Origin: Ustilago trichophora
Taxonomy: Eukaryota > Basidiomycota > Ustilaginomycetes > Ustilaginales > Ustilaginaceae
Assembly (NCBI GenBank): GCA_900323505.1
Contig: OOIN01000007.1
Location: 496,001-560,000, forward strand
DNA: 64,000 nt
Direction of reading: 5' to 3'
The position numbers and the translations under genes were made by a program. The notes below the pieces were generated by a model. That model worked only from the letters and a program-made list of their open reading frames with translations, was not told where the DNA came from and searched no databases. Below are positions 41,473-42,744 of this stretch, piece after piece. The stretch's first letter is position 1. Each line of letters begins with the position of its first letter.

Positions 41473-42744
41473 TTACTTGGGTTTTTGGGGAGGGTCAAGT
41501 TGGGGGGAGAGATAATTACCTATTCCATCTGGAGGAGCTGTGGGGGGTAATCTGTCTGCTGGCACTGAGTTGTTTTTGAGTATGGCATTGGTATTGCAAT
41601 GTGGATTTTTGATGGTTAGAAAAGTTGCAAATCACAGGAAAGGTGGGGGGAGGGGGGGATGTGTAGTGGATTTCTTCCAAAGTGAATAATAATAATACTT
41701 ACCGTAAATTGCCACTTCATATAGACCTTGACCATGATTTTTGATCCATTTTGTATCTTCTGGATCCTCTGCTACCTTTACCACCACTCTGATTGGTCCA
41801 ATTTTGGCGTCTGCATGATGCAAAGCAGTTGTGATATCAGCAGCTGCATCAGTGGATGGTTTTTTTCCAGGTAAAGGTGAACAAAGTATACAATGTGGAA
41901 TTTCATTTGGAACCAGTTGGAAATCCGACGTTATCAGGAGCATGTTTGGTTCAATCGGCTGATTTAACGCCAGAGAAACGTCAAGGTAGGACGTTACGGT
42001 ATCTTTCAAGTAGAGTAAGGTAAGTTCTGCTATGCCAGGCAAACAATTGGAGTGATGTGCATAGGTTGGAGGTACTCGAAGTTTTTGTGGAGTCAGATCT
42101 GCGCACCAGAAAGGGACGTGGGATCGGATGTTTCCAATGGGAAGACTTGAATTTGAGGTGTTGGGCAGGGTGGGAAAGGTGACTTTCCATTTTATATGAT
42201 CTCCAGCAGTTGTTATACGACCCCCTTCCACTGGAGCATCATACTGCAGTTGAGGTGCAACGATTTTCGTCTCTCTATCCTCAAAACCACCACCACCACC
42301 ACCACTACCACCACCATTCATGTTCTCCAACTTGCGCAATGCGCTCTCCCTCAACCGTCTTGCATTTTCATTAACACTTTCGATAATTCCATCGCTGATC
42401 CCATCCAATAGACACCAATCGATCCATCCTGGTCGACTGTTGTACCACCAGTGCTTTTTACAACGAGCTTCGAAATTGTGCTGATTCTCCGTCCCTGATG
42501 GAGGAGCAGGTTCAAATTGGATCAATTCAATATAGACCCCATTGGGGAAGATGATGAGGGCGTTGGATGTGAGTCAGTCCGCATGGGTTCCTCCTCGTAC
42601 AACTTGGAATCCAAGCTCGGAAAAGGTGAGGATGGAACGTTCAAGGGGGGAAGGGATATGAGGTGTGGAGGAAGTGAGAGGGTCGTTGACGAGGAGGATT
42701 AGGTGGTCCAGCGAGGGGATTAGGATGGGTGAGGCTGGCTGCAT
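41473..42744 (-). pseudogene. Glyoxalase-like domain protein interrupted by an in-frame TGA
   Basis: The ATG at 42744 opens MQPASPILIPSLDHLILLVN and reaches GGTHAD, where a TGA (42574-42576) stops the frame. The same frame continues LTSNALIIFPNGVYIELIQF and remains open for about 290 codons. This is the classic glyoxalase_3-like domain, with the stop replacing the conserved Gly of HADG-LT-NALI. One base (GGA to TGA) would explain it. A downstream intron (donor GTAAGT at 41702, acceptor CAG before 41564, 138 nt) would give an ending PPQKPK at 41473-41475. The continuing frame still looks functional (MLLITSDFQLVPNEIPHCILC). It could be a recent pseudogene, a sequencing error, or a stop-codon readthrough. 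A second acceptor (41554 region) is possible. The function, if any, is unknown. Confidence 0.75.

Follow-up and report, generated by a model that had tools for sequence, protein, structure and literature searches.

A glyoxalase-like gene of Ustilago trichophora is interrupted by an in-frame TGA and is very probably a redundant homeologue that has become a nonsense pseudogene, or almost one, in an apparently hybrid smut. The gene lies on the minus strand of the window, the 64,000-nucleotide stretch of contig C7 that was analysed, and its intact counterpart lies on contig C6. The stop looks like the ordinary loss of a spare gene, with no new decoding trick.

The assembly consisted of 38.8 Mb in 45 contigs. 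Positions 988,147-1,049,219 of C6 formed an inverted, collinear counterpart of the window with 82-88% nucleotide identity and a single order and orientation, and the aligned blocks to C6 spanned 60,437 of the 64,000 window bases. Three DNA queries taken from the window each had one full-length second place, on C6, with one query also giving an 83-base partial match on C6. Genomes of 20.7 Mb are reported for two other strains, U. trichophora NBRC 100157 (PMC8951962) and RK089 (PMC4966473). Due to the collinear counterpart on C6 and the size of 38.8 Mb compared to 20.7 Mb in these two strains, the assembly looks like that of an allodiploid hybrid with two diverged parental sets. Among the literature titles listed on U. 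trichophora and smut hybrids, none presents this assembly as a hybrid. A 2.5-kb stretch of the window without a C6 counterpart contained a questin-oxidase-like gene (PF14027; 54829-56697) spread over two open frames, with a probable intron between them. This gene had a single place in the assembly and is, on sequence comparison, a further homeologue difference near the glyoxalase gene.

The Glyoxalase_3 (PF13468) gene of the window (42744-41338, minus strand) has three exons, and its frame, opened by the ATG at 42744, reads GGTHAD-TGA-LTSNALIIFPNGVYIELI, with the TGA at codon 57 (Table 1). The first-pass annotation had described an in-frame TGA in a glyoxalase-like domain with about 290 intact codons and a plausible intron behind it. 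The stop is present in the assembly, 290 codons of exon 1 remain downstream of it, and exons 2 and 3 stay in frame to a TAA; the GT..AG intron was also found in frame, but as two introns (138 and 123 nt) and not one. The piece downstream of the stop matched profile positions 37-160 of the 176 of PF13468 (E 1.2e-9) and scored 38.9 bits against a gathering cut-off of 25.1, with the C6 homeologue scoring 71 bits. The TGA therefore sits inside a conserved Pfam domain, where the stop of a nonsense pseudogene would be expected. A protein search of the assembly itself with the glyoxalase likewise returned one TGA in the window copy. In the homeologue alignment the flanks of the stop were identical at 15 of 15 and 14 of 15 residues, and these near-identical flanks, together with the splitting of the domain, place the TGA beyond chance. 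No second stop, frameshift or broken splice site was found when the three-exon model was checked, which is compatible with a recent stop. As far as stops, reading frame and splice sites are concerned, the earlier statement that there was no other disabling change holds; the window copy does, however, have several replacements at invariant columns.

Table 1. Coordinates of the glyoxalase-like gene of the window, its CpG-depleted block and the DNA-methylase (PF00145) matches of the assembly.
Feature	Position	Strand	Remark
Exon 1, start ATG 42744, TGA inside	41703..42744	-	gene model; PF13468 downstream piece
In-frame TGA, codon 57	42574..42576	-	next bases CTCACA
Intron 1, 138 nt, GTAAGT..CAG	41565..41702	-	position matches the homeologue's 86-nt intron
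Exon 2	41520..41564	-	gene model, GT..AG borders
Intron 2, 123 nt, GTAATT..CAG	41397..41519	-	acceptor shifted compared to the homeologue (80-nt intron), frame retained
Exon 3, terminal TAA	41338..41396	-	C-terminal IRLSPILH shared with several homologues
CpG-depleted block, o/e about 0.5	41183..42744	strand-less	strongest near the gene's 3' end
PF00145 place	C32:29661-31105		
PF00145 place	C38:435416-436854		
PF00145 place	C24:65006-65530		
PF00145 place	C19:552348-552869		

The C6 homeologue is open and annotated, encodes 376 aa, and its spliced translation equals the database protein P0001. Its introns (86 and 80 nt) are located at the same two places as those of the window copy. The closest database protein, UTRI_10141 from U. 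trichophora, has a 100% identity to the C6 copy. At the position of the stop the C6 copy has a glycine codon, so a single-base difference decides between sense and stop. These two homeologues, about 83% alike, were the only copies of the glyoxalase locus found in the assembly. Gly occupied the stop column in 104 of the 120 best of 156 homologue matches, with N, L, D, Q, E, R or H in the other 16; Thecaphora frezii had N and Pseudozyma flocculosa had D. All of the 16 closest homologues (including the C6 copy; the seven named ones are all smuts) had Gly. The conserved Gly described earlier is thus borne out among close relatives, although it is not invariant. The orthologue alignment that had been proposed as a check gave no support for a conserved stop in its context, as these 16 homologues have Gly there; a relative with a stop at codon 57 might be absent from the protein database used. 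The window-copy protein was not among the best 120 of 156 matches to the C6 protein in a search over lengths of 188-598 aa (a shorter model would escape this range). The window-encoded proteins of both control genes introduced below were listed in that same database.

Amino-acid differences between the two copies were polarised with 13 close homologues as outgroups (six named smuts among them), without the aligned rows P0015 and P0016. Two further genes of the window, a GYF-domain gene and an inositol-pentakisphosphate 2-kinase, were used as controls with 13 outgroups each, and the GYF outgroups excluded P0122, whose identity with the two GYF copies is 93% and 92%. Derived changes in the glyoxalase numbered 20 in the window copy and 3 in the C6 copy (23 of 50 differences polarised, 27 not; P = 5e-4). 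Tests with single outgroups, which are mutually non-independent, gave the same direction in 13 of 13 cases, with P < 0.05 in 11. The window:C6 ratio was 14:5 for the GYF-domain gene (26 not polarised; P = 0.06) and 18:15 for the kinase (37 not polarised; P = 0.73). Changes at invariant columns were divided 11:1 between window and C6 in the glyoxalase (168 columns), compared to 1:0 in the GYF-domain gene (231 columns) and 2:0 in the kinase (175 columns). With the two controls alongside, both glyoxalase ratios display the relaxed selection of a nonsense pseudogene, although the contrast of 20:3 with the pooled controls is modest (P = 0.03). A generally faster C7 subgenome was considered and set aside: the control ratios allow a mild lean to the window side, and the glyoxalase stands apart at the invariant columns.

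Ka/Ks between the two glyoxalase copies was 0.117 over the whole gene and 0.120 downstream of the stop, and these low values indicate that selection acted on the frame during most of the time the copies diverged. Neutrality of all 17 excess changes would predict about 3.4 frameshifts, with a probability of 0.03 of finding none. Six of the window-side changes (D90N, R95C, E138K, P193L, R220Q, R285C) fell at CpG sites of the homeologue; without them about 2.2 frameshifts would be expected and the probability of none rises to about 0.11, by arithmetic from the first estimate. The stop is possibly recent, since the window copy has no frameshift, and the relaxation is not brand new, given the excess of replacements at invariant sites and the strong CpG loss. 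From these comparisons, relaxation of the window copy probably goes back some time, with the TGA perhaps as its latest event. The description as a very young pseudogene therefore fits the pseudogene itself and perhaps the age of its stop, but not the relaxation, which is older.

The coding sequence of the window copy retained 34 CpGs (o/e 0.54) compared to 66 in the homeologue (o/e 0.95), and 19 other gene segments of the window had CpG o/e of 0.79-1.10. Within exon 1, 25 of the 60 homeologue CpGs were TpG or CpA in the window copy, with 6 of 34 in the reverse comparison, a directional C-to-T loss at this dinucleotide. Upstream of the gene (42745-43437) the loss was 10 of 33 vs 7 of 34, with no clear direction. 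Across 635 bins of 600 bp, the seven with the lowest CpG o/e started at 41101-41701 and went down to 0.25 (mean 0.96, sd 0.16 in the window). The block listed in Table 1 was the most CpG-depleted of the window, and the homeologue displayed no such depletion (C6 bins across it, 0.72-1.05). TCG sites had changed at 15 of 46 compared to 86 of 765 in noncoding sequence, but this context was picked from 16 after looking and its P values are optimistic; the CpG o/e ranking does not depend on the choice. Among 95 ORFs of at least 300 aa (from the window, the matching part of C6 and a further 195 kb of that contig, with overlapping frames retained), CpG o/e had a mean of 0.98 (sd 0.09), and the lowest value (0.56) belonged to a DDE transposase. 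This DDE_Tnp_4 frame is located on C6 (L024:8008-9213), and CpG-poor bins were observed around it in L024 and also in L025. No repeat or transposon was found at the 3' end of the glyoxalase gene, where the homeologue was the sole match in the assembly. The TGA itself is not a CpG transition.

The DNA-methylase family PF00145 had six matches at four places in the assembly, which look like two homeologous pairs (C32/C38 and C24/C19). The C24/C19 matches fell within open frames some 2,500 aa long, which would be DNMT5-like by their size. The CpG-depleted block and the two apparent DNA-methylase pairs suggest a possible methylation-linked decay of the window copy, and part of the CpG loss could stem from relaxed codon choice or some other effect of the lineage. 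As a tentative reading, rather doubtful on present evidence, one homeologue of a single-copy gene would have been CpG-methylated like a transposon, silenced and mutated at its CpGs, with the nonsense codon arising late in an already silent copy. If true, hybrids could lose genes by way of methylation-driven marking, and this in the genus of the model species U. maydis, for which an absence of DNA methyltransferases is reported (PMC7862722, PMC13297926); PMC7862722 also tabulates a value of 2.26% methylation for U. maydis from an old HPLC study.

Mechanically defined open frames of the window and of C6 were compared both ways, giving 48 aligned homeologue segments on the window side and 47 on the C6 side, with 31 on each side of at least 100 residues. 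Among segments of at least 100 aa and at least 85% identity (21 + 21), the partner carried stops in 3 and 2 respectively, all no more than 20 residues from the segment end. Between 70 and 85% identity (7 + 7 segments of at least 100 residues) partner stops were present in 1 and 3, these four cases being the glyoxalase, one near a segment end, and window stretches at about 57464-57982 and 58181-58537. Below 70% identity (3 + 3 segments, at least 100 residues) the numbers were 3 and 2. Segments shorter than 100 residues had stops in 5 of 17 and 4 of 16, including one with 83% identity at about 2909-3052. The glyoxalase thus appears, among the frames compared, to be the clearest interrupted homeologue pair of the window, not provably the sole one. 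The stretches 57464-57982 (77% identity) and 58181-58537 (73%) have stops in the window copy with fairly conserved flanks; since both overlap other frames, they could be further interrupted copies or no genes at all. Ka/Ks across the 31 window-side segments was 0.03 to 0.65, with the glyoxalase segment mid-range at 0.14. Two pairs displayed very low Ks, 3154-3921 (0.04; no Pfam match) and 29605-30408 (0.07; ribosomal protein S3Ae), most pairs having 0.2-0.9, and gene conversion or strong codon constraint may lie behind these. Beside the glyoxalase, the frame 43438-44067 evolved fast between homeologues (Ka/Ks 0.45, 73% identity) and had no Pfam match above the curated cut-off.

A leaky stop, at which a near-cognate residue would be inserted at a mostly-Gly position to give some full-length window-copy protein, perhaps at low dose, is improbable. 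The context had been described as close to UGA-CUA, and CTC does follow the TGA, but Stiebler et al. (2014, PMC4207609) report that in U. maydis UGA needs no more than a following CU to be read through efficiently; A at +3 added to this in their human-cell tests. The core context of a readthrough gene is therefore present (TGA CTC), which makes some leak at this stop plausible, and the UGA-CU context of the window copy could leak. The intact frame past the TGA and the 16 non-Gly residues at the stop column among the best 120 of 156 matches also fit. However, the C6 copy carries identical bases after codon 57 and 107 of those 120 homologues have Leu at position 58, so the CTC context looks inherited and need not have been selected; codons starting with CT made up 6-9% of the three frames checked. 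The 11 changes at invariant columns, several of which a full-length product would carry, speak against a requirement for that product. The window copy is also CpG-decayed, and C6 has an intact copy. The cases described in PMC4207609 extend a complete enzyme at its C-terminus, whereas the window-copy stop truncates a domain. The proposal of a readthrough switch is thus not upheld, given the context shared with the homeologue, the invariant-site changes and the intact C6 copy.

A base-calling or assembly error at one position is somewhat less likely again, even with a single base separating the stop from the sense codon of the homeologue. Errors in a long-read assembly would mostly be indels, and the frame around the TGA is intact. 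The independent signs of decay (replacements and CpG loss) make an error unnecessary, and the absence of the window-copy protein among the best 120 of 156 matches (188-598 aa) also speaks against it. Removal of the TGA inside a cryptic intron is very unlikely. Eight frame-keeping GT..AG combinations of 50-200 nt are available and the stop region reads CTGAC, presumably a branch-site-like pentamer, but the best donor agrees with GTAAGT at four of six positions, the distance from the branch-like sites to the acceptors is 80-121 nt, and all eight combinations would remove the conserved H54-E73. We therefore rejected such an intron on its weak donors and the loss of the domain core. The least credible reading is selenocysteine or another recoding element, for which the sole point is that the codon is UGA; the stop column is mostly Gly, fungi are described as without the selenocysteine machinery (PMC4207609), and a comparison of 41000-43500 with Rfam gave no match up to an E value of 1, which brings selenocysteine or a known RNA element close to exclusion.

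Under the nonsense-pseudogene reading, selection on the window copy would have relaxed, the function being covered by the C6 copy. The window copy would then have gathered substitutions, CpG transitions among them, and the TGA would have been fixed in the course of this decay. Translation would stop after 56 residues, ahead of most of the domain, and we assume the message to be a probable target of nonsense-mediated decay. Several features would fit this reading less well, namely the lack of a frameshift or second stop, the low Ka/Ks, the P of 0.03 against the pooled controls, and the lean of the controls to the window side. The setting is more useful than the stop, as two collinear, diverged gene sets let homeologue loss be traced gene by gene, and the strong CpG decay confined to one copy offers a testable link from epigenetic marking to gene loss.

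The UGA-CU(A) readthrough described for U. maydis and animals (PMC4207609) shares with the window copy the stop and the first two downstream bases, and one of its hosts is a related fungus. It differs in that the readthrough described there adds a peroxisomal signal to a complete enzyme, whereas the TGA of the window copy cuts a domain, has C and not A at +3, and displays no sign of selection for the stop. RIP signatures are reported for LTR elements of U. hordei (PMC5811872). With RIP and methylation-linked decay of fungal repeats the glyoxalase shares the shift from CpG to TpG or CpA within one block, and a DDE transposase was the other long ORF found to be CpG-poor. RIP takes repeated sequence as its target, whereas the glyoxalase locus is non-repeat, with only two copies found in the assembly, about 83% alike, and only one of them CpG-poor. 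Nonsense pseudogenes among homeologues are known in fungal hybrids and allopolyploids. Like them, this locus combines an intact and an interrupted copy at collinear positions with relaxed replacements in the interrupted one; it differs from them in that the decaying glyoxalase copy is also strongly CpG-depleted, while its partner is not.
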